DNA of 52,885 nt, from the IMG/VR virus record IMGVR_UViG_3300037493_004106, positions 1 to 52,885 of that record; one strand, given 5' to 3'. Positions 10,538 through 52,885 of the stretch are shown here, piece by piece. The first letter of the stretch is position 1. Each line of letters begins with the position of its first letter. Source of the DNA: a virus. The notes beneath the pieces are model-generated. The model was not told where the DNA came from and did not search any database. It saw only the letters and a program-made list of their open reading frames with translations. The position numbers and the translations under genes are program-made.

Positions 10538-10561
10538 AAACTAGAAATTATCGGACAATAT
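10537..10561. repeat. Right copy of the duplication
   Basis: AAAACTAGAAATT, ATC, GGACAATAT. The former start codon position reads ATC here, while the left copy has ATG. Downstream the frame continues in phase into the 10577 gene. Confidence 0.7.
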
Positions 10562-10576
10562 TACGTAGCAGTAAAT

Positions 10577-11083: not shown

Positions 11084-11085
11084 CT

Positions 11086-11501: not shown

Positions 11502-11507
11502 ATATTT

Positions 11508-11636: not shown

Positions 11637-11642
11637 AACTTT

Positions 11643-12586: not shown

Positions 12587-12747
12587 AAACATACCTGTCC
12601 TCTTTAAATCCCTTTAATTGTCTGGAAAGCTAAGTCAGAAATGATATGCCAATCAGCAGCCAAGCCTAAGCAGTCTGCTTATGAAGGTTCAGAGACTATC
12701 TAGAAATAGAGTACATGTAATTAGCTATTACATGGAAACGGGGGACA

Positions 12748-12778
12748 TTTGCATAATTAAATATTTTATCTACCTTTG
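12748..12778 (+). promoter_or_regulatory. Intron-internal Bacteroidota promoter
   Basis: TTTG (12748-12751), exactly 19 nt, then TACCTTTG (12771-12778), a full match to the TTTG / TAnnTTTG consensus. Predicted initiation near 12783-12786 gives a 15-nt leader before the ATG at 12800, so the endonuclease can be made independently of the helicase mRNA. Confidence 0.75.
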
Positions 12779-12799
12779 CTTTGTACAATACACAAAGAT

Positions 12800-13684
12800 A
12801 TGGAAGATATAAAATATAAACTTTATTCATTAAGTGATGAAACTGGTGTTAGATATATTGGAATAACAAAGCAAAAGTTATTATATAGATTATCTGGACA
12901 TCTCGCATCATGTAGACAAGCATTTAAAAACAAAAAATCTAGACATTATAGACATTGTTGGATAAAATCTCTATTGGATAGAAACATTAAACCCACAATA
13001 TCTTTAATAGCTGAATTTAATTCTTCTGAACAAGTTAAACAAGTTGAAATTGCTACTATTAAGTTATATAAAAACTTAGTAAATGGTACAGCTGGTGGTG
13101 ATGGAATAAGAGAATATAAATTCAGTGAAGAATATCTAGAAACTAAAAGATTTAAAGTGGATCAATATGATTTACATGGAAATCTTTTAGCAACATTTAA
13201 AAGTTTGTCAGAAGCTTCATTAATAATAACAGGAACTGAAAAATATAATGGAAAAATTTCAGCTGTTACAAAAGGAAAATACGGAAGAAGAACAGCATTT
13301 GGTTGTGTATGGAGAATACATAACGAGCCATTTGATAAATATCCAGTTACTCCACAAATAAATATTACTGAAGCTCAAAAAAAAGCATTAAGCAAAAGAC
13401 AATTAGAAAATAATGTAATGAAAAATAAATTGGGTTTACAAAATATAAAAAGTAAACCTGTACTAATACTAAATACTGAAAATGTAATATTAAATATTGC
13501 TGAATCAGTTAGAGAAGTTGCTGTCATTACTAAATTATCAAGAAGTTGTGTTGCTAAAATGTTTAAATTGAATAAAGAAGTTGCTGGTTATAAACTAGCA
13601 TATGCAAATGAAGATATAGTCCAATCCTTACAGAAATGTAAGAGTTCAACATTAACAGCTTTTGTTGGACAAACTTATGCCTAG
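12800..13684 (+). CDS. GIY-YIG homing endonuclease of the intron
   Basis: The start at 12800 is chosen because the earlier ATG at 12776 overlaps the -7 element. N-terminal GIY-YIG nuclease: KYKLYSLSDETGVRYIGIT, RLSGHLASCR and the later acidic EQVKQVEIA with glutamate. Then NUMOD-like DNA-binding modules follow (VDQYDLHGNLLATFKSLSEA, FGCVWR; a second copy KPVLILNTENVILNIAESVR). The TAG stop coincides with the last three bases of the intron, and the C-terminal codons overlap the P7 3' strand. It is expected to cut intronless helicase alleles in motif VI and spread the intron. Confidence 0.88.
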   Translation: MEDIKYKLYSLSDETGVRYIGITKQKLLYRLSGHLASCRQAFKNKKSRHYRHCWIKSLLDRNIKPTISLIAEFNSSEQVKQVEIATIKLYKNLVNGTAGGDGIREYKFSEEYLETKRFKVDQYDLHGNLLATFKSLSEASLIITGTEKYNGKISAVTKGKYGRRTAFGCVWRIHNEPFDKYPVTPQINITEAQKKALSKRQLENNVMKNKLGLQNIKSKPVLILNTENVILNIAESVREVAVITKLSRSCVAKMFKLNKEVAGYKLAYANEDIVQSLQKCKSSTLTAFVGQTYA

Positions 13685-13832
13685 AGGTAGGCTATTAAGA
13701 TTAAATCCTGATGATACAGCTATTGTAAGAATACTATGTTATAAAGATACAGTTGATGAGAAATGGGTATCTACTGCACTATTAGATTTTGATAATGACA
13801 AAATAATGTGGGTTACTGATAATGAATTATGA
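13685..13832 (+). CDS. SNF2-type DNA helicase, exon 2
   Basis: Begins with the third base of an Ile codon (AT|A) followed by GRLLRLNPDDTAIVRILCYKD, completing helicase motif VI (QRIGRLLR), and ends WVTDNEL at TGA. The exon is 49 codons long including the shared one. The stop overlaps the ATG of the next small gene (TTATGA). Confidence 0.85.
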
Positions 13833-13960
13833 AAAAGAACACTAATAAAAAGAAAGAAAAATGTTTACATTTGTTTACTCATATTAAAAATTCTGGGAAA
13901 AAGACTGGTATTTCAAGATGGAAATGTATCTTTTGTAAAAAAACAACAAAATCAAACTAA
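13829..13960 (+). CDS. Small zinc-ribbon-like protein (43 aa)
   Basis: Overlaps the helicase stop (ATGA), implying coupling. Very basic with CLH...WKCIFCKK, a CxH / CxxC pattern that could bind zinc. Possibly a helicase partner, by position only. Confidence 0.5.
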   Translation: MKKNTNKKKEKCLHLFTHIKNSGKKTGISRWKCIFCKKTTKSN

Positions 13961-13961
13961 T

Positions 13962-14240
13962 ATGCCTTGTACAGCATTGGAAATTAATAAAGAAGGTATT
14001 GCTCATAAAGTAAAATTCATTACTCAACAAAATGAAAAATACTTAGTTGTATTTATTTATGGTTGTAATAATGAATTTATACCTTATGGTAATCCTGAAC
14101 TTACAGCTTCTGATATGACAGAAGAAGAATATCACAAAAAGCTAAGACTTGAAGCAAATAAGAATGGTCAATTTATAAAAGAACAATCCACAGACCCAGA
14201 ATGGAATCCTAATTACAATAAACAAGATGTTGAACTTTAA
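13962..14240 (+). CDS. Hypothetical protein (92 aa)
   Basis: Starts 1 nt after the previous stop and overlaps the next gene by 14 nt. Soluble with a C-terminal STDPEWNPNYNKQDVE. No recognised motif. Confidence 0.65.
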   Translation: MPCTALEINKEGIAHKVKFITQQNEKYLVVFIYGCNNEFIPYGNPELTASDMTEEEYHKKLRLEANKNGQFIKEQSTDPEWNPNYNKQDVEL

Positions 14241-14538
14241 AGTTGTATGTATAAATGATTCTGATAAACCAGAAGATATTCCTTCATCCAAATGGGTAAA
14301 GAAAGATCAAATTTATACTGTAATAGAAGTAAGTAAAATGAGGATGCAAGGTAATAAACTGGGATTTAAACTAGCTGAAATTAATTTAGATAGTTGTTTC
14401 CCATATCAATACTTTGCATCTTCTAGATTTATGCCCTTACTAAGAATCAAAGATATGTCAATAGAAGAGACACTTGAAAGATTATTAGAAGAAGTAAAAA
14501 AGGAAGAATTACAAAATGAAAAAATACAGCAAGCGTAG
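14227..14538 (+). CDS. Small conserved-looking phage protein (103 aa)
   Basis: The pattern FKVVCINDSDKPEDIPSSKW, then YTVIEVSKMRMQGNKLGFKL, ending in PYQYFASSRFMPL is the look of a widespread small phage domain with an SH3-like barrel and a C-terminal helix (IEETLERLLEEVKKEELQ). No biochemical role is known to me. Confidence 0.65.
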   Translation: MLNFKVVCINDSDKPEDIPSSKWVKKDQIYTVIEVSKMRMQGNKLGFKLAEINLDSCFPYQYFASSRFMPLLRIKDMSIEETLERLLEEVKKEELQNEKIQQA

Positions 14539-35805: not shown

Positions 35806-35843
35806 AGGGGAGATTGGCTTAGGCCTTTCTCCCCTTTTTTTTT
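35806..35843. terminator. Strong, probably bidirectional terminator
   Basis: AGGGGAGA (35806-35813) pairs with TCTCCCCT (35828-35835) and GGC (35816-35818) with GCC (35823-35825). It ends in nine T's on the plus strand and in A/T-rich sequence on the minus strand. It sits between the last plus gene and the end of the 1985-aa minus gene, whose stop overlaps it by 2 bases. Confidence 0.85.
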
Positions 35844-38800
35844 ACTTATACACTGTATATTGTCTCTTAAATATCTTCTCTATATCCATTAGTGGATCTG
35901 TATCTGAACCACTAAAGCCCAAGTAACCCTTAAAGACATCATTCAATATTTTAGGAGATCCTTCTTTTTGATACCACCATGGACCAACATCCTGCTGATA
36001 GAAAGCATATTTTGATCCAGCCATCCATCCTGGCAAGTCTTTAAATAAAATACTAACTGTATTAGTTAGTGGTCCACTTAAAGCAATTGCTTGTGGATTA
36101 ATAAAGCTTACATAGTGATTTGCTACTTTCAAGTCTAAAGGATTTAATGGATTTATAAATGCTTGGTTTTCATTTCTTACATTTAATCCTAATTTTAAAA
36201 ATTGTAATCCTAACCAACTAATCTCATTAGCTTCATATTTTGCTTTTATCTTTTTGTATGCTTCATCATCATCATCATCCCATCCAAAGAAGAAGTAAAG
36301 CGCAAAGTTAAATAGCATCATAAGCAATGCATCAGCTGCAATTCTTGTTAATGCTATTCTTTCCTCTTTACCCATAAATTGAAGGTAACTTCTCATTTCA
36401 CCTTGTATAGTGGACATTATAAATTTATATATACTTTTAAATCCAAGTAAGTACCATCCTTCATACTCAGAACCAACTCCAAAGTTGTATCTCTTTTTTG
36501 AAAATCTAGCCATTAATGGAGCATAGAAGTATCTTCTCATAAATGCCATCATTCTATAGAAGAAGTTCTTTTGTAGATATGGTTGATCAAGTTTAGCAAA
36601 TGCACCATTGAGCTGATTACCTACAGCACCAACTCTATTTTTAAATGCTTGAAATAATTTACCATTGATATCCCAATCCTTACTAATACCATCCTTAAGT
36701 TTAATAACTCCGCTTTGATCTAATTCCCATGCTTCTGCATAAGGGATTAATCTTGTTACACCACCTTCATTAATTTCTACATACTGTTGGTATAGCATAC
36801 CATAGAATAAAGCTAAAGCTCCTTCCATCTCTAAAAACTTTCTAGGAGAGTATAACCACGACATACTTACTACATCCTTTAAAAAGCTTCTTTGTGTATC
36901 ATTAGCAAATTTATCTTCAAAACTTTTGTGCGCATCCATTAATCTGATTAACTGAACATCTAGTGGTTTGTCAATAGTAGTAGCATTTACAAATGGTGAA
37001 GTATAAGAAGTCCATAGCATCATAGCTTGAAGACCTTTGCCTTGTCCTTTTAAGTAAGAACTTCCTTGTAAAACAATTGGTGCAAGACCATCATATTCCT
37101 CATCATTTTGACCTATACCAGCTAATCCCAATACTGTATTTTGCCAAACCATTCCTAAGTAGTTTTTAGCAGCAGACTGAATATTTAATCCAAAAAACTG
37201 GAATGAAGAAAACTTGTTTAATGTACTAACTGCTTTATTAAGTATAACACTATGCTCATTATATGCATCATCATACATTTTTCCTCTAAGTTCTCTATCA
37301 ATCATGTGTTGTAAATACTCTTGTCTTCTAGATTTTTGATCATTCTTGTACTTTTTTTTAAATCTAGTAATACCATAAGCTTCCTTCATTATCCTATCTG
37401 CTTTGCTCATATTTTTTATGGCATTATCTGGATCATCTAACACATCCATTAATGATTGAGCAAGTGGATCTATTTTGAATTTTTGGTTTTGATACTGAAG
37501 ACTGATATTATATTTACCTAGTGAGTATAATAAATTAGTAGATGTCTTCTCAACAGGAAGAGCATCTGATACTCCATGCACGGGAATCTTATTAGAGGAT
37601 AAATCTTCTAATGATATATCTGCGTATTTTATAGCAGCTTCTGTTTTAAGCTCATCAATTTGAGCATTACCTAAGTCTTGCTCAAACTCATTACCTATTA
37701 AGCTTTGATCTTTTTCACCTCTGAGGCGATTAGGAATGTAGCTAAATACTTTTCTTAAATTATCTACTTCTTGTTTAGCATTACCGGATGCAACATATTC
37801 ATATCTATCCATTTCAAATCTTGGCAAATCAAGATATAGCTTAGCATCTTTAGTAGCATTTTTCTGAAACTTAAGAGTGTATTCAGTAGTCTTCTTTAAT
37901 AATTCAAACCTAGAATCATTAGCATTTTTCAAATCATAATATGTTTGATTTACATAGGGTGAATCTGTAGGAGCTGTATCAACTTTTTGTTCTGCATTTG
38001 TTAAAGGATTAATTACAGTATCCTCAAAACTTTTTGGTAAGAAGTTACCCATATTATCAATTACTACCCCTACATAGTTTTCTCTTTGTTCTGGTGTTAA
38101 TCCTATAGGAATAGTTCTATAATCATTCTTAATCCTTCTATACTTAAATCTGAATGCGGGTTCACCAACAACATTAATTACTTTATCAGTAAAAGGATCT
38201 TTTATTTTAAATGATTTTATGTCAGCAGGATTAGTAGGGCGAGTTACACTATAAGCATAAACTCTTTCATACTTATAATCTCTTTCTTTTGTTTTATAAT
38301 TTATAAATTCTTTGACAACATGAGTCTTTAAGAACCATTCTTTAAATCTCTTGTTCTTTGTCATTGCTTTTTCTAAAAACTCATTATCCTCTAATAGTTT
38401 ATTTGCAGTAGTTTTATCAACATCTGCACCACCTACTAGTTTTAAATGAATATTAGCTTGTTCTACATAATCATCTGTAGCTTGTTTAAATTGTATAGAA
38501 GCTAATACTTTAAATGCACCTTTTAATTGTGCTAACTTAATTGCACCAATTTTTGGATTGTCTTTTCTATTTAAAAGTTCTTCATACTTTTCTCTATCCT
38601 CTCCTTCTAACTTACCTTTTCTTTTTAATAACTCAGTAAGTTCAATAAGCTCTTCCATTTCATCAATAGATATTCCAGTCATTATAGCAAGCTTATCTTG
38701 AGCATCTATAATATCTTCCTGTGCAATCCTTAATTTTTCCATTGTTGCATCAGTAATTCTGGAAGCATCTGTTTCCCCATACTCATCTTTGAATATAGAT

Positions 38801-41799
38801 AGTACATCAAATATGTAACTATACTTTTCTGATATATCAATAGAAGATGTTATCTCCTTAATAGTATTTAAAGCTTCTAATCTTTGTTGGTTAAAGCTTT
38901 CCTTAAAAGCTATTTTTGTATTTTTAGCAATCCAGCCTTCATCACCATGCACTCTTGCATAGTATTCCATTCTCTTTGTTTTATCAGCAGAGTCTGGAGT
39001 AATGCCTTCTAATGCTAATGATTGAACAAACTCATTAAATGCTTCTTGAAATAGTCCAGGAACATCAATGTATTCATAAAACTTTTTGCTAGTCTCTCTG
39101 TGTTTAGCAAGAACTTGAGCAATACTTCTATCATAAATATTCTTTTCAGGAACATCAACCTTTGGCGTACCATCAGGATAATTTAAAGAATATAATTGCT
39201 TTAATTCATCTTGATAACCTTTAATAATATTAGTAGACTCATAAATATCACGCTCATTAAAATTACTTCCTTGTTCAAGTCTTAATTTTTCAAGTATTTT
39301 TTCTCTGGCTAACCAAGCATCCCATCCATATTCACTCTCTTCAAATATTTTATCTTTCTCATATACCTCTGTCTTATATCTTTGGTGGAAATACTTTTTA
39401 TCCCAGTTGTAATACTCTTTACTTTTTATTTTAAATTCTTCTCTATCTTTAAAACTGAGTTCTTCTAGATCATCTAGCTTCTTTCTTTTATCATATCTCC
39501 AATTTTGTGTTGGATTTAATATAGACCAAACCTCTTGCTCAATTAATTCACCTTCTTCATATTTAAAGCTTTTATCTTTAAACATATATTCTTTCCAGAA
39601 ATTGTGAGCATTATTATTACTATATCCTAATTCCTTTAATAAATTAGCAATTGATCTTTGAAAGTCTAGTTGTAATTTTTCTGCTTCTACTTCAGCTTTA
39701 GTATAAGCTTCTTTTAGGGTAATACCGAAAGCTCCTATTGACAAGTCATTAATATTTAAGATCTCATCAAAGTTTTTATTAGTCATTGTTAAATCAACTG
39801 TCTCACCTTTAAGAGATGCTTCTAATTTAGATTTATCAATTTCCCACTTTTTATATTCTGCTGTAAGCTCTGCTTTTCTTTTCTCTCCATATTGTTTTTT
39901 GTCTGGATTTTCATCTATTATTTTGTCAAATCTCTTTAGCTCTCTAGCATACTTATCATCAATATTTTTCTTTACTACTGCTAATTTTTCATAGAGTATA
40001 TTCTTTACTTTCTCAAAGTCTACTTGTTTTATTAAGATATCCCCTTTTTTGATATTATCCTGTATCTCTCCTATGTATCTAAAGATTGGGTTTTTCTCTG
40101 TAGAGAATCCATTCCTTAAAAATTCTTTATTAGCTTCTGTTAAAAGCTCATCAAATCCAGAATATAAACCTTTAAAACTATTAACTTTTCTTAAGTCATT
40201 TAATAGAGTATCAGTATCTGTAGTTTGATTTTGAATTTGCTCATCTTTAATAGTTTCTAATACAGTATTTATTTTCTTTACAAGAAGGTTCATACTTACT
40301 AATGTATTGATATATGCTTGAGCAGCATTCTTTAAATCTTCATTATTAGTAATGATATCCTTTTGTTTGGTCTGTTCTTGTTCTACTTTTACATTTGTTG
40401 TTCTGTATGGCTTAAGTTGTGCTCTTAATTGATTTAATAGTGCAGCACCTGATTCTTCATCTAAAAGATCTTTAGTTTCTGTTTTAATTGCACCTTCAAC
40501 TTTCTTTATATAAGCTAGTCTTTCCTCAATTCTTTGATGCAATACATTAATACTTGCTTGTAATGCTTGTCTTTTGGGATCATTTGATACATCAGCAACT
40601 AAATCTTCAATTTCTTGTACTTGTACTCTCTTAAAATCAACATAATCTTTGGCTACTTCATCAAATTCAATAGAGAAGTTTTTACCAATAATTATATCAG
40701 CCAGATCTTTAATAGTAGTATTAGCTTTAAGATTTTCAGCTTTTATTTTATCTCCTTCTAAGTTCTTATTGCCAAACATTTTCCTAATAACCATTCTTAT
40801 TTCAGCTAATATGTTTTGTATAGCTTTTAAGAATCCTTTGCTAAGAGATGTTTCTTTGTTTTCTAAATTAGAATATGGATCTTTTGGTAGACCTACTTTT
40901 GTAGCAAGATCAGTTGCTTCATAAGCAAGAGCATTAACAATAATCTCTTCTTTAAATCTATCACTTTCCTCTTCTAAGTTCTTATACTCATTCTTTACAT
41001 AAGTCTTAATTTCTTGTCCTTCTGGTGTATTTATTACTGATTGGTAAAGTGACTCAAATAAAGCTTTATTTTTAGATTGAATCATCTTTACTATAGGATG
41101 AGCAAACTCATGGAATACAGAATTTAAATTAATTTTATCCTGTACTAAATAAACCACACCATTATAAAGAAATGAAGGTTCATTAACATAAGGAGTATCT
41201 GTATTACTTAATAACTGAATAGCTGAATCAGAAGATATCTTTTCATACTTAATGCCTAGTTTGCTTGATAACATCTGAGCCCATTGAATAGCAATATAAT
41301 TTGCTTTCATTTGATTAAACTTCTGCTCATCAGTAAGAGTATAAAATGACTCCGGATATTTTGGCAATTTATTATAGCTCATTATATCATTATAGAGTAT
41401 CTCTGCTGAATTAACTGGCTTAGGTATTTCTATAGAATCAAGATCTTCTTTTGCTTCATTAACAACTCCTAATACTTCCTTTTTATAATCTTGCTTATCT
41501 AACCATTTTTTAAAATCCTCATTAGCATAAATGTTGTTATCAGCATTTCTTATAATTTCTAAAGGACTAACAAAGCTGGTAATGTTCTTTTTAAATTCTG
41601 GATTAGTATATGCTTCTAATAAAGGTATTGCAATATTAGATTTTTGTTGTAGAAATTCTTGGAACACTGCTTCTAAAGGAGTAGCATATTCACCATCGTT
41701 TCTAGCAAATGTCTTCCAAGCTAAGTCTTCACCTAATGTTGCTTCTAAATTCTGCCATTCTGGTAAATTCTTATTTGGACAAACTAATAAATTTTTCAT
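35842..41799 (-). CDS. Giant zincin protein (1985 aa), ejection/transcription module
   Basis: Starts 7 nt downstream of the giant polymerase gene. N-terminus CPNKNLPEWQNLEATLGEDL leads to a zincin: HEFAH (residues 230-234) with candidate third ligand in EEIIVNALAYEA. Long charged helical tracts follow. Near the C-terminus is a hydrophobic stretch (DALLMMLFNFALYFFFGW) and an acidic DDDDDEAY run. Such giant helical proteins adjacent to the virion RNA polymerase of crAss-like phages are candidates for internal capsid or ejection proteins. Its cleavage targets, if any, could include itself or the neighbouring polyprotein. Confidence 0.75.
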   Translation of the reverse strand: MKNLLVCPNKNLPEWQNLEATLGEDLAWKTFARNDGEYATPLEAVFQEFLQQKSNIAIPLLEAYTNPEFKKNITSFVSPLEIIRNADNNIYANEDFKKWLDKQDYKKEVLGVVNEAKEDLDSIEIPKPVNSAEILYNDIMSYNKLPKYPESFYTLTDEQKFNQMKANYIAIQWAQMLSSKLGIKYEKISSDSAIQLLSNTDTPYVNEPSFLYNGVVYLVQDKINLNSVFHEFAHPIVKMIQSKNKALFESLYQSVINTPEGQEIKTYVKNEYKNLEEESDRFKEEIIVNALAYEATDLATKVGLPKDPYSNLENKETSLSKGFLKAIQNILAEIRMVIRKMFGNKNLEGDKIKAENLKANTTIKDLADIIIGKNFSIEFDEVAKDYVDFKRVQVQEIEDLVADVSNDPKRQALQASINVLHQRIEERLAYIKKVEGAIKTETKDLLDEESGAALLNQLRAQLKPYRTTNVKVEQEQTKQKDIITNNEDLKNAAQAYINTLVSMNLLVKKINTVLETIKDEQIQNQTTDTDTLLNDLRKVNSFKGLYSGFDELLTEANKEFLRNGFSTEKNPIFRYIGEIQDNIKKGDILIKQVDFEKVKNILYEKLAVVKKNIDDKYARELKRFDKIIDENPDKKQYGEKRKAELTAEYKKWEIDKSKLEASLKGETVDLTMTNKNFDEILNINDLSIGAFGITLKEAYTKAEVEAEKLQLDFQRSIANLLKELGYSNNNAHNFWKEYMFKDKSFKYEEGELIEQEVWSILNPTQNWRYDKRKKLDDLEELSFKDREEFKIKSKEYYNWDKKYFHQRYKTEVYEKDKIFEESEYGWDAWLAREKILEKLRLEQGSNFNERDIYESTNIIKGYQDELKQLYSLNYPDGTPKVDVPEKNIYDRSIAQVLAKHRETSKKFYEYIDVPGLFQEAFNEFVQSLALEGITPDSADKTKRMEYYARVHGDEGWIAKNTKIAFKESFNQQRLEALNTIKEITSSIDISEKYSYIFDVLSIFKDEYGETDASRITDATMEKLRIAQEDIIDAQDKLAIMTGISIDEMEELIELTELLKRKGKLEGEDREKYEELLNRKDNPKIGAIKLAQLKGAFKVLASIQFKQATDDYVEQANIHLKLVGGADVDKTTANKLLEDNEFLEKAMTKNKRFKEWFLKTHVVKEFINYKTKERDYKYERVYAYSVTRPTNPADIKSFKIKDPFTDKVINVVGEPAFRFKYRRIKNDYRTIPIGLTPEQRENYVGVVIDNMGNFLPKSFEDTVINPLTNAEQKVDTAPTDSPYVNQTYYDLKNANDSRFELLKKTTEYTLKFQKNATKDAKLYLDLPRFEMDRYEYVASGNAKQEVDNLRKVFSYIPNRLRGEKDQSLIGNEFEQDLGNAQIDELKTEAAIKYADISLEDLSSNKIPVHGVSDALPVEKTSTNLLYSLGKYNISLQYQNQKFKIDPLAQSLMDVLDDPDNAIKNMSKADRIMKEAYGITRFKKKYKNDQKSRRQEYLQHMIDRELRGKMYDDAYNEHSVILNKAVSTLNKFSSFQFFGLNIQSAAKNYLGMVWQNTVLGLAGIGQNDEEYDGLAPIVLQGSSYLKGQGKGLQAMMLWTSYTSPFVNATTIDKPLDVQLIRLMDAHKSFEDKFANDTQRSFLKDVVSMSWLYSPRKFLEMEGALALFYGMLYQQYVEINEGGVTRLIPYAEAWELDQSGVIKLKDGISKDWDINGKLFQAFKNRVGAVGNQLNGAFAKLDQPYLQKNFFYRMMAFMRRYFYAPLMARFSKKRYNFGVGSEYEGWYLLGFKSIYKFIMSTIQGEMRSYLQFMGKEERIALTRIAADALLMMLFNFALYFFFGWDDDDDEAYKKIKAKYEANEISWLGLQFLKLGLNVRNENQAFINPLNPLDLKVANHYVSFINPQAIALSGPLTNTVSILFKDLPGWMAGSKYAFYQQDVGPWWYQKEGSPKILNDVFKGYLGFSGSDTDPLMDIEKIFKRQYTVYK

Positions 41800-41806: not shown

Positions 41807-44800
41807 TTATTGATAACAACGTCTCTTTAATTCTAACCAATCATCTTCTACAACATCCTGATATTTAACTAATATGTCTTTTATACTAGGAGTATTTTCT
41901 GATCCTGGATTTACAAATTTAAACTTATTATAAAGCTCTTTGCTGATATTATCAAAAATACTTTTCTGTAATGAGTTAGAACCTTCAGATACTACTTGTG
42001 TAGATACAGGAGCTTTGGTAACTTTAAATGTATTAGCATATACATCTCTGATAGCTTGTCTACCTGCCTCATTAATTTCCCTAGTACCAATACCTGCAAA
42101 GTTTTTAGTAAGAGTAGGTACTTCAGATTTAGACCATTTACCATTGATATTTTTATACCATTGATTTCTTATTTGATCAAATAGATAGACTGGTTTACCA
42201 GCTTGAATTGCCATTTCTACTGCATAACCTGTTCCTCCTTGTACTGCAACCTTGAGAAGTTTTCTTGGTTCAGCAGATTTTTCATCTCCTTTCCAAATAT
42301 CACCTTCTTTACCCAATGTACCAATAGCAAATACTGCATCTGAGTTAACAACTTGAGCCCAATTTCTAATTAGTCTCTGATCTTTCATTGTGTTGTACTT
42401 ATAACCCCACATTTGCTTAGCAGCTTGTGCAACCTTACTTGCTCCTTCTACTGCTATTGGCTTATCTGTAATATCTACATTTCCTAATGGTGCATTCTTT
42501 GGTCCTTTTTCTCCAGTAAAGTAATGTTTATTATTTACCATACTAAAGTCTTTACCAATTACATCCCATTGCGTATCAGATCCAATTGCCCCACCAGAAT
42601 GATTAGTATACTCTGCTGGATTATTTACAGTACTTACAGGAACTTGAGCTGGTTTACCCCAATCATATTTATTAATAAGATAATCTAATGCTGTAGCATG
42701 AGAAGGTTCTCCAAGTTCTTTATAATAAAGAATAGGTTTACCTTTTAATTCTCCTGATTGTAATTGTTCTAAAATCCATTCTCTTTGATTATCTAATTCT
42801 TCTGGTTGTATTCCTGTAAATACATATTCACCAGTTTCTCCTGTTATAATCCAATTAATATACCTTTCTACAGCTTCTTTTGTTGATTTAACTTGTATTA
42901 AATTTTGAAGTCTTATATCAGATGTAAAAGGATTTCCAAAATGAGCATCAGACATTTTTATTCTGGTAGATATTATTTGATTATTAAAATTAGAAATAGC
43001 TTTAGTAGCATCTTTTAATTCTCCCCAAGATTTAATAACTACATTTCCTGACTTAGTTTTATTACCTAATTTAGAATATATAGTTTCAGCTGTTTGTGTA
43101 CTTACAGGAGCTTGAGGTTGAGTAGATGATTGAGTAGGTGTAACAGATAATATAGGAACATTACCTGTAATACCTTTAGCTGTAACATTTAGCATGCTAC
43201 CTATTGATCCTACAAAGACTAGCTTTTTACCCGCCATGTATTGCTCATTAATAGCATCAATATCCTTAGATATTATGTTTGATACCATAGCAAACTGTTC
43301 TGTGTTCTGAGGATTAGTAGCTGCGTTTTGATCTCTCATAGTTATTACACCCATAGCATTGTTTAATCCTGCTAATGATAAAGCCATCTTATTAATAGGA
43401 TTGACAAACTTTGCTCCTATTTTAATATCACTTGCTTTCTTAAACTCTTTATTCTTTTGAGCCATTCTTAATGCATAGATATCATCATATACAAATATCT
43501 TATCTGGATTATTTTTAGCAAGTTCTACAAGTCTAGCACCATCTAAAGGAACAAGTTGCTTAGTTCTTGCCTTTGTCTTAGGATCAACAACTACTTTCTC
43601 TACTCTATCTGCTACTTTAAACACTCTTGGATTAGAAGTTGATACCAAAAAGTCTTTATTAAATTCAGATGAGACATTATAGTTTTCTACTATCTCTTTG
43701 AAATTAGCAGAGAAATAATAGTTTTTTATTCTTGTTCTTTGAGAAACATTTTCTCTAGAATTCTGTTCTGCAAAATTGTCCCATATTGCTTTTAGAAAAG
43801 AAGTATCTGAAATAGAAATTGTATCATCAGTACTTTCCATTACTACAAATGAATTTAAAGATGCTGTATATTTAGCTACTTCTTTTTTCTTTTTTTCTTT
43901 CTCTTCTTTTGTTCCACTTATATCAAATACTTTTGGTTCTAATGCTTTTTGTATTCTAGATACTGGATCAAGCATTATATTTCTTATATCTTGGTAAGGA
44001 AGTATTTCAGAAAAGTCATACTTCCCTGCACTCATACCATTCTGCATATAAGAATAAATAGGGAATATTTTGAATGTATAAGTTATTCTTTGATCTATCT
44101 TTCCTCCATTATCAATCTTAGATATACTTGGATCAGCCAAGTCTTTTAAGTTGTCATTATATGAATTTGCAATTTCTGGTTCTAAGTCTCTGATCTTAAA
44201 ATAAAGATTGCTAAGATTTGAGCCAATTTGTTTTTCAGAAGCCAAGAATTTTAAGACAGGATAATTCTCTAATAAAGTTTTGTGATCTTTATCATTAACT
44301 AAATCCATTACTTGTTTTGCTAATGAGTAGTTCTCATCATAGTATAATGTTTGAATATTGCCTATATTAATAAGAGCTTGTACTTTTAAAAATTCTTCGT
44401 AAGCTAATACATCTATATCAGAATTATAATCTCTTTCATTTTGATCAACGCCTTTAGGATTAGCATCCTTCATTCTCTTTCTTATTTTTTCATAGAATGG
44501 ATCATTCTTAAGTTCAGAAAGCTTATTGTTATATCTTAAGTATTCTCTCTCTACTACAAACTGTTGAAATTCTTTTGCACTCTGTTCTCCATAATTATTA
44601 AAGATGTTTTTATTTAATTTAGCTAGACCTCTAGAAACATAATTATTAGCACCTTCACTTCTTAAATAAGCTTGAGTTTTAAAATCATTTTCAATTATTG
44701 ATTTATCAATATAAATAACAGGTTTGCCCGGAACTTTTTCAGCTACCAATGCTCCGCCAGTAAGTCTATCTACAATCTTAACTGGTATATCAGTTGTTAC

Positions 44801-47800
44801 AAGTAATGACTTATAACTAGGCATATTGATATTAAATGACTTAATATAATTTTGGAATAGTGCTAATTTTAAGTCACTGATAAACGTAGATATTATCTTT
44901 TCATCTTTATAACCTGTCTGTGATTTAATTCTATTGAGATCATATGTATTGTCAATTATAAATTTAGATATTACTCTATTTGATTCTAATGGAAGTAATG
45001 GAGACCACAAATCAACTTGGAAATTCTGTATTCTAAATGTGCTCAAGATAGAGTCATTGATTATAATATCAGCTAAGTCTTGATCTATTCTTTCATTATT
45101 CAATAGATTATTGATTTCAAAATCTCTACTAAGAGCAGAGAATAAACCAGTATCTTTTGCTTTATCTAAATTTGTTTTTAATCTTAACTGTTTAATACCA
45201 GAATTAAACTTTTCTATTTGAAAGAAATGAAGAAAAGCTAAAAGAGAATTATCTGTTATTCCTTTATTTTTTACTATTAGTGCTAAATCATTTGTAGAAA
45301 AACTTTTATTTCCTAAAGCTTCATCTAATATTTTATAGATATTTTTTTCGTTATACTTTTTAGGATCAAAACCATATTTATTTAAAGTTCTTCTAAATGC
45401 TTCAACTCTAAAATACATTGGATTATCAATGCCTTTCTCTAACTGTTTAGAATAAGGAGTTTTAATTAATCTTTGTTGCTTAACATACTCTCTTACCATA
45501 GGATTAGAAACAAACCATCCAGCATCTTCTAATGTAATACCTGATTCAACCATTGATAAAATAACAGGAATTACCTCTATATAACCCTGCAGATAAACTA
45601 ACCATTCATTTTGTTCTAAATCTACTGCACCATTTATTATCTGGGATATAATATCTGATATAGGATGAATACCTTTATTGTCATATATACTTGATAATGA
45701 TACTACCTTTTTGCCATTTTCATTAATTACAGAATTATGATTTAAATAATACTTGATTGGCATATCTATTAATTCAGTAACCATTTGCTTATTTTGATCA
45801 TAAACAACTTTACCATTTTCATCTAGTACAGGATAAGGAAAAGCCAATGATTCAGGCATTAATGCTCCATATCTCATAAATAAGGTATGATATTTATTAC
45901 CAATAACAGCAATACCCAATGAACCTTTACCAGTATTAAAATTAAAATGTTTATCAAGATTAAATATTGGCTCTAATAATCTGCTAGGACTAACTCCTCC
46001 TTCCAACACTTGTCCATCTTTTAATATACTTTTTTGCCAGTTATTCTCTTGTACATAAGGTTTAAGAGACTCAGATATTTTAATCCCGATATTATTATTG
46101 TTAGGTCTAATTAATGAATAAAACTTTTCTGGAGATGATAGAATATCAACTATTGAATTGATTAATGCATTTTCATATTGACCAATAAATCTTCTTTTTA
46201 TTTCTTTAAGGGAGGATATTTTATTATTTATTTCATTAATTTCATTTAAATCTTGTTTAAAAGAATCTCTTTGTTCTATTGATATTTTCATAGAATCATA
46301 TAGAGCTTTAATCTCTACATAATTATCATAAGAATCTGTTTTTAAATTAAATAATTTTTTATTCTTACTAATCTTAGATAATAATTCGCTTTTGCTTAAA
46401 CCTTTAAATAATTCCATCAGTTCTTTTTCAGTGCCTGATAATATTATTTTCTTCATATCATCCGTGATATATGGACTTTCTAAATTATTTATTAATTCAA
46501 AAGATATATCCTGAATAATCTCTGTCTTTTTAGCTTTTGCTATTTCTAATAAAAGAATAACTGATTTTATAGATCTATTACTTACTCTAATGTTTTCTTT
46601 TACTTGTTTCTTTACTTCTGATAAACTTGTTTTATCATATTTTTCAGAAGCAAGTTTATCTCTCTCTGCTTCTGCTTTAGTTATATCCTCATCAAGTTGC
46701 TCTTTATTTTCATAAATCAGGTTCATAACTTCTCCTGACTTCATGATATTTGGTAGATAGACAGTAAGTTTATCTATGTCAAAGTCAGCACCAGCTTTTG
46801 CTACAATCTCTTGTGGTGGTATAAGAACATTACCAAATTGTGGAGGCAAGAATTCAAATACTTCCATAAACTCCATAGAGTTATCACCTTGTACTGGAAT
46901 ACGAACACCTACTAATGTAATCTTCTTTCTATTATCACCCATGTCTAACCACTCTTCATCTTTAAGGAGAGCATTTAGATTAGCTAATGTATTTTCAAAA
47001 TTTAATATTCTTTCAGATTCTCCATTCTCATTTTCTACAGTATCATAAGCTTTGATTGAATTACCTTCTTTATCTTTTGCATTAAAGAGATTTTCAAAAT
47101 CACCTTGCAATGATATTTTTATTTTCATTGCAGTATTTATAAGCTCATTCTTTTTAGTTTCTGGATTATATCTCATTGTCTGACCATAGGTTGCTAGGTC
47201 AGTAGTTTTAAATCCATACTTTTCTATCTCTTCCTCAGTTGGCTTTCTAAATTTAGGTTTTTCAAATAAAGCATTTGATTGTAATACTAAAGCTTCTCCT
47301 TTAATCTTTTGCTTTACTAATTCATTGTTTACTATTGATAGAAAAACTCTTTCAAATTTATTAGCCCAGGGAATAGCTGATATATCTGATTTTACTTCAC
47401 CTGTTATAGGATCAACATCAAAATAATCTAATTGATGATCGGGAACATTCTGTTGCTTAAGCTTTGGCTTAATAACATTATTAATAAGCAACTCTCTGTT
47501 TTTTTGTAACTTCAAATCAATATTAGGATCCAATCCTCCTTTGATAAGAAGTTCCTTTCTCTTTTGCTCAGTAATTTGAGCTACTATTGTTTCAAATGCT
47601 CTTGCTTTTTTATAATTAGCATATTTAAGCTTTCCTTTTTCTGTAAGAACATCCCACTTTCTTTTTCTTTCTGCATATTCCGAATTAGGCATAAAGTCAG
47701 AAGGAATACCATTAAGGAATAAACCTGAAGTGATTAATGTTCTAAACTGAATAGAGAATACAGAGCTTCCTTTCCAGCTTGTATTAATTTCAACTTGATC

Positions 47801-50800
47801 TCTTAGATTTCTTACCCACACCACATTTACATTTTTTAAGAAAGTGACATCAGAATTAAATTCTCTATTGTCTAATTCTCCTTTATATAAATCAGGGTAT
47901 GAACCATTATCAGTAATATTGGCTGTTTTAGATCCAGATTCAAAAGTTACATAGTCAATACCTTCTTCCATCATTTTGTCATGGAGCTTATTAAGATTGA
48001 TATCCATTAAGCCTGGAATAAGTGGAGCTAATGAAAATTTATGCATTGCTAATGCAGGAAGATGTTGTCCCTTTAACATTCCATAGTGAGAAAACTTTAC
48101 TGGAGACATGAACTTACCTACTTCTTCTACTGATGGTATATAACCTTCAATGATTGCTCTAAATAAATTTTCATGTTCCTTTGTCCACTTTTGTCTAGCT
48201 TTTAAAAGTATTCTATAAGAGTCAAGGGCAATATATCCTTGACCATCTGCTTCTTTCATTTTATAGTAAGGATAAACTTCACCATTCTCTTTAGGATCAT
48301 TAATTGATCCTCCCTTACCATATACTATTTCATCTACTAGTTGATTAAGTTTAGTAGCAGTAAGCTTTGGATTTTTACTTCTAATTCTAGCCTTGTAGAA
48401 CTCTTCCATCTTTTTAGCATAGAACTCATAAGCAGCAGATTTGCTTTTTATCTCTTTTATAATAGAAGTATTTAATGTTCCATTATATTTTCTATATGCT
48501 ACATCTGCAGATACTTTTCCTTCTGCATTTCTTTTTAATGATAATGGTCTTTTGAATACATCATTAATATAATCTTGAAAAGCGGCATCTGTCCTAAAAA
48601 GATTACCCGGAGATTGAGAATTACTTGTTCTCTTATTTCCATCATCCTTTTTATGATTGAATTGCTGTAAGCCACCATGCAATAACATATACATATATGC
48701 ATTGTGTATCCATGAATTTACAGTATATGAATTTACTAAAGCAGTTACCCACTTACTTCTATTTTGAGACAACTCTGTATCTACATCATCTGTATATTTA
48801 GATACAATAGATTCTAATAACTGATCATATATAAAGGGAGCTTTCTCTATTTCTTCTAATGTTTTACTAGAAATAGTTTGAAAATAATTTGCAGTATCTT
48901 CTTTTATGGACTTTGCTAACTCAGGATATTTTGTGTTTAATAATATCTTTAAAGCATTCCTACTAGGATCTGCTAATAAATCTTGATATATCTCTGGAGC
49001 TAAAAGTAATTGTTTTGTAGAAGGTTCTAGGATATCATCAAATGCGTAGAACTTATTTTTACTTTTTTCATATACACTAATGTTATTGTAAATATCTGGA
49101 TTATCATTTACAATATTTATTCTTCGCACTTCAGCTTCAATAAGTCTAAACACTATATCAAGTAACTCTGCATTTTTTAGTACAGGATTTATTTTATCTG
49201 GCTTTACAATTAAAGATGCTGTGTCAATATATAAATGTGGTTCAACTGCATTTCTTCTTATTTTTCTTTCTGTTCTAACACCAAATACAGAGCTTTTAGA
49301 CCCAGCTTTAGGATTTTGTATATAACCAGAATTTAAAACCATATGAAAATCAGTAATAAACTTTGTATGTCTATCTGATTTTGACATTGATGTTCCACTA
49401 ACAAAAAGATTATTCTCTAATAATTGAGTACCATTAATATTTTCAAGTATTAATTTAGTACCCTTTCTTCTTTTTCCAAAGTCAGAGTTAATTAAATCAA
49501 CATCTAAAATAAATACATCATTAAGAATACCTAATGCTTTTATATCTGGATTAATTCTAGGATCTAAGAATTCAAGATATGGTGTTTCACCATTTGGATC
49601 ATATAAATCTTGGAATCTATTTGCCTTATTAATTGCCTCAACTAATATAGATACTGGAAAGTTCAATGAGTGCTCATAGGCTTTATCATTACTAGCAGTA
49701 GATACACTTAAATTAGAATAATTATCAGAGTAGTTATACTGTAACTCAGCTAATTCATTTACTCTAAAGCTTAGTGACTTTAAATTTTTACCACCTAATC
49801 CTTTAACATAAATAGGAATAGGATCATAAACTATTTGATTAGTTTTATTTAGCTCATCTATAAAGCTTGCAAAGTAAGTAGTAATACTTGGATCAATCTT
49901 AGACTTTATTTCAGAATTGATATCTATATAAATACCAATAGCATTAAAAAACTGCAAGGCTCTTTCTAAATCTTTTAAGATTGGCTCACCATTTTTATAT
50001 TCAATAAAATCATTAATTATCTTACTTAAATTTAAATAAGGATTATTTGAAGTATCAAGTAAAACATAACCATTATTATCCGGTGTTTGAGAAAAGAATT
50101 TGTTTCTCCAATCTCTTTTAACTTTTATTCTATCTGAACTTGTTTTACCAATTGCATAAGAATATTGATCTTCTTTCTTCTCATCTTCTAAAAAAGAAAT
50201 GTCATCAAACTCATCTTCTTGTTCTGCCTTTTTAATTTTATTAAGCATTACAATTAAAGGAACTCTAGGCTTATTAAAATCTTGCCAGAAGTCTGTCCAT
50301 AAATCTAATTGTTGTACACCTCCTGTAGCTCTCCAGTTATTAGGATTACTTAATCTATTAGCTAACTGCTGATAAACAGGGATTGCCTTTTGTTTATTTG
50401 GATCACTAATAATATTCCATAAATCACTTGGCTCATTATATCCAGCCAAGTTTCTTACTAACTGATTCCATACAGAATCAAAGTCAGCTAATTCAGGAAC
50501 ACCTAATCTATTCTTTTTAATACCATCTTTTTCTTTTGGATCTAAAGCATAGAGTGTTTTAATTAATCTGATTGTAGATATAGCAGCTAGTTCTTTTATA
50601 GAAAGCTCATTACCCTTAGCATCATTAATTTTATAACTTTTTGCAATGTCTTCTGCATTGGAAGAAGTAAGATCAACATCTTCAATTATCTTAATTCCCT
50701 TAAGTACATCACTATTATTTAGGAAGTAATGTAAATAACCAAGACTTTCTTTACCATTTAATACTTCTTCTGTATTACCATAATTAGCAATTACCCATTC

Positions 50801-52885
50801 AATATTATTAACATCTTGAGCTAATCTTTTTCCATCATTTGAAGCTTTATCTGAAGCAGACATAGCATCATATCTATCTTTTATATCTTTATATAACTCT
50901 TCAAAGTTTCTTCTTACATATTCATAAAGATCTGATTTCATACTTGAGTCAGTAAATACTAATGCAGACATTGCTGACTTACCTTTAGCTACCTGATCAT
51001 TTATGTATTTTGCTACAAAGCTTTCCGCAATTTTTCTAGCAAAATAAGCATCCTCCGCTTTTAATTTATTTGTATTATCTAGTGATACAGGAGCCATCAT
51101 AAGCTCATTAAACATTATATTATCAACAGATGGCTTATAGTTATTTAAGAATTTTTCATAATTCTCTTTACTAGAACCAGCAAAATATAAAGTATCAAAT
51201 ACTTGTTGAATAGGTTGTATATATCCCTGTGATGTTGATTCTTCTATAGGAGTTGTTGTACCAGGAAACCAAGACATTAAAAAATCCCAAATTCTTTTAA
51301 ATATATTTCTTCTTTGAGGGGAAATAGATTTAGGAGATTCTTTTTTAAGACTCATTGCCATAGCATAAGCTCTAAATTCCTCTGCTAAATATTCTTCTAT
51401 TTGTTTGTCAGTAGCAACATCTGAATTTACATATACTGGCTTACCATTAATATCTACACCAATCTGAAGCTTAGTTTTTGATTTTGCAACACTATTATAT
51501 AATGCTCTCTTTTCAGCTCTTGTTAAATAAAGCTGAGAGAATGCATGCCATGATTCATGATAAAGAGCAACATCTTTTATTCCATTTCTTAATCTTATAC
51601 CAGCTTGAGACCATGTAGCCCATGCATTAGAGTTAACTATGTTTGCTAATTGTTCTAATGGTATGTTTACTCTTAATGGAGAACTAGTCCACCAATCTTC
51701 TACAGCAGATAGCTGTTCTTTAGTAGCACCCATATCTATCCACTTTGCTGCGGATAAAGTAGTGTCATCTTCTACATCATCTGATGGATGATCTAAATCA
51801 AGTCTTTGTTGTCCTTTTGATTGTGTTCCTTTTCCTACAAACTCTTTAAATCCATCTATATCTTGTTTATTACCTAGTATGTGTATTTGTTCTGGTTCAA
51901 ATACTACATATTCTTTTTTAAAATTATCAGTATTGTATCCATCTCTACCATTAATTAAATCTAACGCATCTTTTTCAGTAGCTTCAATAATAAAGCCATC
52001 GTTAGTATCTTTATAATTTTCTACTTTTCTGTTAGTATAAGTAGTTACTTTAGGGTTTTGCATATTAATTAATAAAGCAGAAGTAGTCATTAGATCATTA
52101 CTACTTTCTGCCATTTCAGCCATTAGCTCTGCTTGGTCTTTAGTACCAGAATAAAACCCATTTTTCCATCTATCTTTATTTTTAATATTACCTACATTAA
52201 ATCTACTATGATAAACAATATCTTTTACTTGGCTATCAGGAAATACACTATCAAGATATTGAGAATATAGTTGTTGTGCTTGTTGTTTTTGTTGTGGGGT
52301 TATAAATAAATCAGATAAATAGCCTGATGTACTAATAACTTTCTTTTTATTTACTTTTGCTACTGTATTATCTATATCAGATTTCCAATCTTCAAAACCA
52401 TAAGTAGCACCTCTAGCATCAAATCTCTTTTTAAATTCCTCTTTAGGCATTGTAATTACTTTATCAAACTCAGCCATTCTTTCTTTAAGAATATTAGTAT
52501 TTGATACAAATAATATTTTACCTTCTTTTTTAGCCTGTGCTTTTAATCTATCATAAAGATTAAGCATAAACTCATTATATTCTTTAGGTTTTCTACCTTT
52601 ATATTCCTGCCTGGTTTCAGCACCTCTGTTAGCATCTACAAAAGCGTTAACTTCATCAGCATAATCATCATCAAGAGTTATAAACTTATCTTCCCCTTGC
52701 TTCTTTAAAAAGCTTTTACCAATAGTAGGGTGTCCAAATACTATTCTATCATTTGGTGTAATTAGTTGCTCAAACCCTAAAGCTTCATATACAGCATTAG
52801 CTAATTCAGGATTAGATTCAAATAGTTGTGATATTCCTGGTTTTATTTCTTGAATAGGTTTTTTTTCAGCTAAAGGTGTTATTAA
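41807..52885 (-). CDS. Giant virion RNA polymerase-like polyvalent protein (5' end outside window)
   Basis: An open frame runs from the window edge (52885) to TAA at 41807, at least 3692 aa. Order from N to C: P-loop GHPTIGKS (52712-52735) with following ITLDDDY; ART-like domain with IVYHSRF, NGFYSGT, EPEQIHILG (about 51835-52225); zincin HESWH (51545-51559) with EEYLAEEF; a long RNA-polymerase-like region centred on AGADFDIDKLTVYLPN (DFDID at 46772-46786), the metal-binding aspartate motif of crAss-like virion RNA polymerases; a DUF4326-like domain with HFGNPF (about 42926); a SLOG-like domain with HSGGAIGSD and GGTGYAVEMAIQAGKP (about 42075-42610). Likely packaged and injected to transcribe early genes. 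The visible start at 52567 is an internal Met. Confidence 0.75.
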   Translation of the reverse strand, partial: LITPLAEKKPIQEIKPGISQLFESNPELANAVYEALGFEQLITPNDRIVFGHPTIGKSFLKKQGEDKFITLDDDYADEVNAFVDANRGAETRQEYKGRKPKEYNEFMLNLYDRLKAQAKKEGKILFVSNTNILKERMAEFDKVITMPKEEFKKRFDARGATYGFEDWKSDIDNTVAKVNKKKVISTSGYLSDLFITPQQKQQAQQLYSQYLDSVFPDSQVKDIVYHSRFNVGNIKNKDRWKNGFYSGTKDQAELMAEMAESSNDLMTTSALLINMQNPKVTTYTNRKVENYKDTNDGFIIEATEKDALDLINGRDGYNTDNFKKEYVVFEPEQIHILGNKQDIDGFKEFVGKGTQSKGQQRLDLDHPSDDVEDDTTLSAAKWIDMGATKEQLSAVEDWWTSSPLRVNIPLEQLANIVNSNAWATWSQAGIRLRNGIKDVALYHESWHAFSQLYLTRAEKRALYNSVAKSKTKLQIGVDINGKPVYVNSDVATDKQIEEYLAEEFRAYAMAMSLKKESPKSISPQRRNIFKRIWDFLMSWFPGTTTPIEESTSQGYIQPIQQVFDTLYFAGSSKENYEKFLNNYKPSVDNIMFNELMMAPVSLDNTNKLKAEDAYFARKIAESFVAKYINDQVAKGKSAMSALVFTDSSMKSDLYEYVRRNFEELYKDIKDRYDAMSASDKASNDGKRLAQDVNNIEWVIANYGNTEEVLNGKESLGYLHYFLNNSDVLKGIKIIEDVDLTSSNAEDIAKSYKINDAKGNELSIKELAAISTIRLIKTLYALDPKEKDGIKKNRLGVPELADFDSVWNQLVRNLAGYNEPSDLWNIISDPNKQKAIPVYQQLANRLSNPNNWRATGGVQQLDLWTDFWQDFNKPRVPLIVMLNKIKKAEQEDEFDDISFLEDEKKEDQYSYAIGKTSSDRIKVKRDWRNKFFSQTPDNNGYVLLDTSNNPYLNLSKIINDFIEYKNGEPILKDLERALQFFNAIGIYIDINSEIKSKIDPSITTYFASFIDELNKTNQIVYDPIPIYVKGLGGKNLKSLSFRVNELAELQYNYSDNYSNLSVSTASNDKAYEHSLNFPVSILVEAINKANRFQDLYDPNGETPYLEFLDPRINPDIKALGILNDVFILDVDLINSDFGKRRKGTKLILENINGTQLLENNLFVSGTSMSKSDRHTKFITDFHMVLNSGYIQNPKAGSKSSVFGVRTERKIRRNAVEPHLYIDTASLIVKPDKINPVLKNAELLDIVFRLIEAEVRRINIVNDNPDIYNNISVYEKSKNKFYAFDDILEPSTKQLLLAPEIYQDLLADPSRNALKILLNTKYPELAKSIKEDTANYFQTISSKTLEEIEKAPFIYDQLLESIVSKYTDDVDTELSQNRSKWVTALVNSYTVNSWIHNAYMYMLLHGGLQQFNHKKDDGNKRTSNSQSPGNLFRTDAAFQDYINDVFKRPLSLKRNAEGKVSADVAYRKYNGTLNTSIIKEIKSKSAAYEFYAKKMEEFYKARIRSKNPKLTATKLNQLVDEIVYGKGGSINDPKENGEVYPYYKMKEADGQGYIALDSYRILLKARQKWTKEHENLFRAIIEGYIPSVEEVGKFMSPVKFSHYGMLKGQHLPALAMHKFSLAPLIPGLMDINLNKLHDKMMEEGIDYVTFESGSKTANITDNGSYPDLYKGELDNREFNSDVTFLKNVNVVWVRNLRDQVEINTSWKGSSVFSIQFRTLITSGLFLNGIPSDFMPNSEYAERKRKWDVLTEKGKLKYANYKKARAFETIVAQITEQKRKELLIKGGLDPNIDLKLQKNRELLINNVIKPKLKQQNVPDHQLDYFDVDPITGEVKSDISAIPWANKFERVFLSIVNNELVKQKIKGEALVLQSNALFEKPKFRKPTEEEIEKYGFKTTDLATYGQTMRYNPETKKNELINTAMKIKISLQGDFENLFNAKDKEGNSIKAYDTVENENGESERILNFENTLANLNALLKDEEWLDMGDNRKKITLVGVRIPVQGDNSMEFMEVFEFLPPQFGNVLIPPQEIVAKAGADFDIDKLTVYLPNIMKSGEVMNLIYENKEQLDEDITKAEAERDKLASEKYDKTSLSEVKKQVKENIRVSNRSIKSVILLLEIAKAKKTEIIQDISFELINNLESPYITDDMKKIILSGTEKELMELFKGLSKSELLSKISKNKKLFNLKTDSYDNYVEIKALYDSMKISIEQRDSFKQDLNEINEINNKISSLKEIKRRFIGQYENALINSIVDILSSPEKFYSLIRPNNNNIGIKISESLKPYVQENNWQKSILKDGQVLEGGVSPSRLLEPIFNLDKHFNFNTGKGSLGIAVIGNKYHTLFMRYGALMPESLAFPYPVLDENGKVVYDQNKQMVTELIDMPIKYYLNHNSVINENGKKVVSLSSIYDNKGIHPISDIISQIINGAVDLEQNEWLVYLQGYIEVIPVILSMVESGITLEDAGWFVSNPMVREYVKQQRLIKTPYSKQLEKGIDNPMYFRVEAFRRTLNKYGFDPKKYNEKNIYKILDEALGNKSFSTNDLALIVKNKGITDNSLLAFLHFFQIEKFNSGIKQLRLKTNLDKAKDTGLFSALSRDFEINNLLNNERIDQDLADIIINDSILSTFRIQNFQVDLWSPLLPLESNRVISKFIIDNTYDLNRIKSQTGYKDEKIISTFISDLKLALFQNYIKSFNINMPSYKSLLVTTDIPVKIVDRLTGGALVAEKVPGKPVIYIDKSIIENDFKTQAYLRSEGANNYVSRGLAKLNKNIFNNYGEQSAKEFQQFVVEREYLRYNNKLSELKNDPFYEKIRKRMKDANPKGVDQNERDYNSDIDVLAYEEFLKVQALINIGNIQTLYYDENYSLAKQVMDLVNDKDHKTLLENYPVLKFLASEKQIGSNLSNLYFKIRDLEPEIANSYNDNLKDLADPSISKIDNGGKIDQRITYTFKIFPIYSYMQNGMSAGKYDFSEILPYQDIRNIMLDPVSRIQKALEPKVFDISGTKEEKEKKKKEVAKYTASLNSFVVMESTDDTISISDTSFLKAIWDNFAEQNSRENVSQRTRIKNYYFSANFKEIVENYNVSSEFNKDFLVSTSNPRVFKVADRVEKVVVDPKTKARTKQLVPLDGARLVELAKNNPDKIFVYDDIYALRMAQKNKEFKKASDIKIGAKFVNPINKMALSLAGLNNAMGVITMRDQNAATNPQNTEQFAMVSNIISKDIDAINEQYMAGKKLVFVGSIGSMLNVTAKGITGNVPILSVTPTQSSTQPQAPVSTQTAETIYSKLGNKTKSGNVVIKSWGELKDATKAISNFNNQIISTRIKMSDAHFGNPFTSDIRLQNLIQVKSTKEAVERYINWIITGETGEYVFTGIQPEELDNQREWILEQLQSGELKGKPILYYKELGEPSHATALDYLINKYDWGKPAQVPVSTVNNPAEYTNHSGGAIGSDTQWDVIGKDFSMVNNKHYFTGEKGPKNAPLGNVDITDKPIAVEGASKVAQAAKQMWGYKYNTMKDQRLIRNWAQVVNSDAVFAIGTLGKEGDIWKGDEKSAEPRKLLKVAVQGGTGYAVEMAIQAGKPVYLFDQIRNQWYKNINGKWSKSEVPTLTKNFAGIGTREINEAGRQAIRDVYANTFKVTKAPVSTQVVSEGSNSLQKSIFDNISKELYNKFKFVNPGSENTPSIKDILVKYQDVVEDDWLELKRRCYQ

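Follow-up and report, generated by a model that had tools for sequence, protein, structure and literature searches.

Exchangeable accessory modules and terminal cysteines on a giant crAss-like virion RNA polymerase, the probable middle member of an ejected three-protein train

The window analysed here is the whole of IMG/VR record IMGVR_UViG_3300037493_004106, a fragment of 52,885 bases. Among the plus-strand ORFs, which extend to 35.4 kb, are replication genes (helicases, a primase, an exonuclease, an ATPase and a DNA polymerase; the ten ORFs scanned in the window are of replication type), and beyond them lie two giant genes on the minus strand, referred to below as P1 and P2. An earlier note on this DNA had described a frame of at least 3692 codons at 41807-52885; this frame is present, uninterrupted and open at the contig end, and lies on the minus strand, which the note had left unstated, the plus strand being full of stops. 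The features of the two giants are as follows.

35842-41799, minus strand: P2, second virion giant, 1985 aa, homologous to crAss001 gp49 and phi14:2 g065
41098-41112, minus strand: HEFAH motif of P2
41779-41781, minus strand: codon of the only cysteine of P2, proposed coupling site to P1
41807-52885, minus strand: P1, giant virion RNA polymerase ORF, 3692 aa, 5' end off the contig
41816-41818, minus strand: codon of the only cysteine of P1, proposed coupling site to P2
41951-42673, minus strand: SLOG/DprA-like module, aa 3405-3645, 83-91% identical to modules on far more divergent polymerases
42686-43159, minus strand: DUF4326-like module, aa 3243-3400, without cysteines, unmatched by Pfam PF14216
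43976-48988, minus strand: crAss-like virion RNA polymerase (RNAP) core, aa 1300-2970, with DFDID at 46772-46786
51086-51733, minus strand: zincin-like region, aa 385-600, with HESWH at 51545-51559 and EEYLAEEF at aa 497-504, conserved in relatives
51791-52273, minus strand: ART-PolyVal-like module, aa 205-365, 81% identical to a module on P2 of locus L117
52304-52765, minus strand: P-loop module, aa 41-194, with Walker A GHPTIGKS (aa 51, 52712-52735)
52772-52843, minus strand: inter-module linker KPGISQLFESNPELANAVYEALGF, which recurs before modules in other giants

Scans of the whole of P1 against Pfam and PHROG returned almost no matches. From the N-terminus its modules run P-loop motif, ART-like, zincin-like, polymerase core, DUF4326-like and SLOG-like. 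A profile of P2 matched crAss001 gp49 and phi14:2 g065 with E values of 3.7e-20 and 4.8e-20, and phi14:2 and other crAss phages share the layout of the window, a replication block followed by reversed giants. This agreement in gene order weighs against the suspicion, raised by a single metagenomic contig with a truncated end, that the long frame is an assembly chimera, as do the 108 polymerase-containing ORFs (non-redundant at 90%) which a deeper scan recovered from many contigs, the complete ones having a median length of 3607 aa. The number of independent loci led us to reject a chimera, the probability of which is negligible.

The metal motif DFDID, which the earlier note took as the mark of a crAss-like virion RNA polymerase, lies at aa 2034-2038 and is invariant in an alignment of ten sequences. 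A profile built from ten relatives convincingly matched only one solved structure, PDB 6VR4, the virion polymerase of phi14:2 (g066), in two long stretches that include the DFDID region (total E 4e-24), and tblastn connects P1 to annotated crAss polymerases; support for the proposed identity is therefore strong. N4-type virion polymerases (vRNAPs) belong by family to the single-subunit T7-like polymerases (PMC5512222), and the T7-like polymerase domain, searched for as a test of this type, had no Pfam match in P1 at E up to 1. Conservation among the 13 relatives of the first round spans approximately aa 385-2970, from the zincin-like region through the polymerase. The HExxH motif reported previously is present in this region (HESWH, aa 443), the name of the domain being taken from the motif and its conserved position in relatives. 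Homologues in crAss001 have been detected by virion mass spectrometry (PMC10172136), and the phi14:2 annotation is based on MS/MS.

Two irregularities were noted in the polymerase genes of relatives. In phage cr108_1 (L190, 7480-16674) approximately 290 bases interrupt the gene exactly inside the catalytic DxDxD (...AKAGSD / LYDIDK...), the pattern expected of an intron or intein-like insertion. In L012, L013 and L014 an insertion of ~100 residues (aa ~3000-3200), between ENWLDK and the ARIPVQG stretch, sits in the conserved polymerase stretch directly before the metal motif region.

The domains that the earlier note had named on either side of the core fared unequally. The SLOG-like domain has good support (phrog_768, E 1.1e-4; tblastn, 8e-42), the Pfam cpYpsA model, PF12694, finding no match in the window. 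Support for the ART-like domain is moderate, since PF18760 reached E 3e-4 for one genome, with 16.9 bits against a curated cut-off of 31.2. The DUF4326-like module failed the Pfam test but shares the motifs HFGNPF, EAVERYxxW and GKxxxYY...H. The Walker A motif stands, GHPTIGKS being invariant in three sequences, and the P-loop module, which has no match in Pfam, is so named from its motif and conservation. It is 83% identical to a 555-aa ORF in L114 and 74-76% identical to its counterpart in L115, and is also found at the N-terminus of P2 in the human-gut crAss phages cr55_1 and cr124_1. In L115 a giant in the P2 position (5900-14362) carries, by eye, apparent histidine-phosphatase motifs beside the P-loop module. 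SLOG, DUF4326 and NADAR families counter NAD+/ADP-ribose signals (PMC9503650); by analogy, ADP-ribose-type signals are the predicted targets of the SLOG, DUF4326 and NADAR modules and host proteins those of the ARTs, and the modules may serve to disarm the host. As the DUF4326-like module is without cysteines, any cysteine-dependent function cannot apply to it.

Comparison of modules with cores indicates that the outer modules are mobile cassettes, exchanged between phages. The SLOG, ART and P-loop modules of P1 have counterparts at 74-91% protein identity in phages whose cores are only ~25-48% identical: the RNAP catalytic stretch in these module-sharing phages retains 46-48% protein and 57-58% DNA identity, and longer core alignments are 23-30% identical. 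Across 820 pairs, SLOG identity is unrelated to core identity (Spearman 0.08). Loci L109 and L110 are 96.6-97.6% identical in DNA across the core and across their final 134 codons, which form a C-terminal cap. Between core and cap, one locus carries SLOG-ART-ART and the other AlkB-SLOG-DUF4326, and only one of the two has, upstream of the zincin, a further module of 120 aa. The DUF4326 modules of L049 and L105 are 99% identical in nucleotides, compared to 76% for the core. Position varies too, SLOG lying on the N-side in L011-L014 and ART, in relatives, on the C-side or at the N-terminus of P2. The ends of ART modules display 79-84% third-position identity around interiors only ~38% identical in protein, and modules are repeatedly separated by a linker of the type KPGVSELFESNPELA; these ends and linkers may act as recombination handles.

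Among 55 C-cassettes, Pfam recognised SF1 helicases (15), AlkB-like oxygenases (15), DUF7831 (8), NADAR (5), cpYpsA-type SLOG (4) and ART (3). A search of 2.9 million viral contigs with SLOG alone found mostly crAss-like polymerases in the same ORF, and the same SLOG is also embedded in the N4-type vRNAPs of phages Pylas (L194, 9055-20514) and PT15-A5 (L198, 8746-19233), neither of which contains a cysteine. That injected polymerases of two kinds carry the same SLOG module speaks for a function connected with injection. Alternatively, the modules might have no effector role and instead help to package, space or refold the chain, or be carried along as neutral parts of a mosaic; a C-flank is nearly lacking in many polymerases, so that the modules are dispensable, and the DUF4326-like module has no cysteine. 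We consider this unlikely, because dN in exchanged modules is well below dS (dN/dS ~0.07-0.25; in a SLOG example 0.05 versus 0.64), indicating purifying selection, the recurrent families are enzymes (ART, NADAR, AlkB-like, helicase) and one module recurs on an unrelated polymerase.

Annotated crAss giants carry DprA-like/SLOG and helicase domains. The polymerase giants of cr113_1 and cr130_1 (L195 and L196) owe the annotation 'DprA-like DNA recombination-mediator protein' to their SLOG module, and those of cr50_1 and cr118_1 (L191 and L192) are called 'DNA helicase'. Together with N4-type vRNAPs fused to zincin and ART (Iyer 2017, PMC5512222), these giants mean that fusion of effectors to a vRNAP is not unprecedented as a kind. 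The novelty that the earlier note claimed for the domain order of P1 does not extend to this kind of fusion, and the exact order is one of many recombinants, a product of frequent cassette exchange rather than a unique fusion. A further idea, that modules lose cysteine on capture, was dropped because the small SLOG-family carriers, few in number and heterogeneous, could not establish it.

P1 contains one cysteine in 3692 residues, at aa 3690, third from the C-terminus, and P2 one in 1985 residues, at aa 7. Both belong to a trio, P0, RNAP and P2, corresponding to crAss001 gp47, gp50 and gp49 and to phi14:2 g067, g066 and g065; as the P0 of the window falls outside the contig, the RNAP/P2 joint alone is directly visible there. 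In phi14:2, P0 has a single cysteine as its last residue, RNAP has two (MAC..., ...ECK) and P2 has one (MSC...). Among non-redundant loci, cysteines were present on both sides of 65/66 P0-RNAP junctions and 87/88 junctions between RNAP and the next protein (152/154 overall), while interior cysteines in the giants number 71 in 589,816 residues (0.012%) compared to 118 in 8,718 (1.35%) in the window's other ORFs. The two junction exceptions are a frameshift hiding MACNS in L033 and, in L002, a break inside RNAP, which is no joint and carries no cysteine pair.

When termini were counted separately, each taken as 25 residues, a cysteine was found at the C-terminus of RNAP in 101/103, at its N-terminus in 73/75, at the N-terminus of P2 in 88/90 and at the C-terminus of P2 in 0/53, and six complete environmental P0s (1886-2763 aa) each have exactly one, at -1 to -3. 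The two polymerases without a C-terminal cysteine, L161 and L171, are followed by no separate giant, and a P2 fused to their C-terminus was found as predicted beforehand (E 1e-30 and 3e-31). Those without one at the N-terminus are L168, a frameshift, which reads IMVNCSL downstream of a protein ending NDLDC, and L117, a P0-RNAP fusion as read from its length. The P2 exceptions are the frameshifted L033 and L043, whose MIACPNK starts just beyond the 25 residues. The rule is kept in phi14:2, crAss001, crAssphage and other Intestiviridae, Steigviridae and Suoliviridae, and, in a separate collection of bacterial genomes, in L207, L212, L213, L216, L221, L222 (an isolate of Spirosoma oryzae) and L226. 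Neither terminal cysteines of crAss or other ejection proteins nor a cysteine-coupled train is described in the literature searched, which excluded the phi14:2 polymerase paper.

Gene fusions and insertions change the pattern joint by joint. RNAP-P2 fusions, identified by a P2 profile in crAssphage gp44 (E 1.2e-38) and L210 (E 2.6e-64) and by length and synteny in cr11_1 and cr110_1, lose the RNAP C-terminal cysteine and keep the cysteines of P0 and the RNAP N-terminus. Apparent P0-RNAP fusions, recognised from length and position in several Suoliviridae and cr108_1, have no N-terminal cysteine, and their RNAP-P2 pair stays. Extra proteins inserted after RNAP (L134, L160, L049) have cysteines at both ends. 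In crAss001, P0 is encoded on the opposite strand from RNAP and P2, thus the rule follows protein identity and not gene adjacency. The alternative-code gut phages cr7_1, cr130_1 and cr124_1 keep the terminal cysteines and have several interior ones. In a Chitinophaga sp. YR573 contig, from a cultured member of the Bacteroidota (L209, 1007-17479), a 5491-aa polymerase protein contains zero cysteines; this is probably a provirus with all giants fused, although a search for P2 similarity in the protein detected none. A divergent relative in an Erysipelotrichaceae MAG (L211, 5477-12910), from the collection of bacterial genomes, breaks the rule: its polymerase has 11 cysteines, many of them interior, and no terminal pair, and may show the point at which the rule was acquired or abandoned.

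We propose, with a probability of about 0.68, that P1 occupies the middle of a three-part ejected train, a cassette-flanked polymerase whose termini are disulfide-coupled to its neighbours. A crAss-like phage would pack P0, RNAP and P2 in its head and eject them as a train ahead of or with the DNA. The facing terminal cysteines, we infer from their distribution, form disulfides that join neighbours, which would make P0-RNAP-P2 one covalent chain, held by peptide bonds or disulfides, to be threaded through the tail in a set order. The reducing host cytoplasm would then take the chain apart, the polymerase would transcribe early genes there, and the accessory modules would act on host proteins, DNA and NAD+/ADP-ribose signals. 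The head-to-tail order P0, RNAP, P2 is preferred because it is the only reading that predicts where cysteines are present, which are lost in each type of fusion and why there are two in every extra protein. Against the proposal count the divergent L211, the unpaired internal break in the polymerase of L002 and the interior cysteines of some alternative-code gut phages. Disulfides stabilise the tail elsewhere in crAss001 virions, the cargo of which must partly unfold to traverse the tail (PMC10172136), and the absence of cysteine from N4 vRNAPs has been linked to ejection and passage through tail and periplasm (PMC3715699, PMC3915230); for these reasons a disulfide is the natural bond to suppose, and with the interior purged the couplings alone would be left able to react. 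In a more general form, with slightly less confidence but still on balance in favour, we propose that Crassvirales load three giants as a head-to-tail train, disulfide-coupled or gene-fused and outside the couplings devoid of cysteine, with couplings that open in the reducing cytoplasm and with swappable effectors on the polymerase and its partner.

The pairing of facing cysteines is deduced from sequence, and the terminal cysteines could instead be real but fix each protein to the portal, tail or capsid, coordinate a metal, or link copies of one protein to each other. The tail disulfides of crAss001 (PMC10172136) make a cysteine link to structural proteins possible. We regard such roles as improbable, however, because the cysteines track joints: they are absent at the chain ends, that is the C-terminus of P2 and the N-terminus of complete P0s, absent in fused genes and present at both ends of inserted extras. 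It is far less probable still that cysteine has simply been purged from all ejected giants, the terminal ones being a functionless inheritance of the lineage. The purge itself has a parallel in N4-type vRNAPs, whose freedom from cysteine is the one linked to ejection, as in the polymerases of Pylas and PT15-A5 with 0 cysteines in 3819 and 3495 aa, but neutral cysteines would not have been kept in > 97% of such divergent proteins, at both termini, against an interior frequency of 0.012%, and would not vanish on gene fusion. Intramolecular pairing of the two cysteines of RNAP was considered as the main idea and rejected, as it leaves the single cysteines of P0 and P2 unexplained and fails to account for which pair each fusion type loses.

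For the most abundant viruses of the human gut, it has yet to be explained how megadaltons of protein pass a tail through which folded proteins do not fit. One cysteine per joint, replaced by a peptide bond in the fusions, leads to a definite prediction, a disulfide-linked train. Cassette exchange suggests that the injected polymerase also serves to deliver early effectors; it directs attention to new counter-defence enzymes and accounts for the mislabelling of crAss polymerases as DprA or helicase. The cysteine-coupled train is the larger point; neither cassette exchange nor the near-cysteine-free three-protein chain featured in the earlier note.

That note had likened P1 to the polyvalent proteins of phages, and the comparison stands on sequence evidence, as several effector-type domains occur in one predicted injected protein. 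Polyvalent proteins (Iyer 2017), N4-type vRNAPs among them, are multi-enzyme proteins predicted to enter with the DNA and carry ART and zincin domains, traits that recur in P1 with its ART-like and zincin-like regions; crAss polymerases and SLOG/DUF4326 go unmentioned in that study (PMC5512222), and P1 differs in its crAss-type polymerase as platform, its cassette exchange and its cysteine joints. The systems described in PMC9503650 have the same families in the same pairings as P1-type giants (SLOG with DUF4326 and NADAR), but as typically standalone proteins, whereas those of P1 are cysteine-free and fused to an injected polymerase. The N4-type vRNAPs of Schitoviridae (Pylas, PT15-A5) are likewise giant and injected, with a zincin motif and, in these two phages, the SLOG module of P1; unlike P1, they contain no cysteines at all and have no coupled partners. 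The closest likeness is to the known crAss vRNAPs, phi14:2 g066 (6VR4), crAss001 gp50 and crAssphage gp44, which resemble P1 in DxDxD core, homology, giant size and neighbouring virion giants, and in which terminal cysteines are also present. To these P1, with 3692 aa compared to just 2180 aa in phi14:2 g066, adds the zincin-like region and the P-loop, ART, DUF4326-like and SLOG cassettes.
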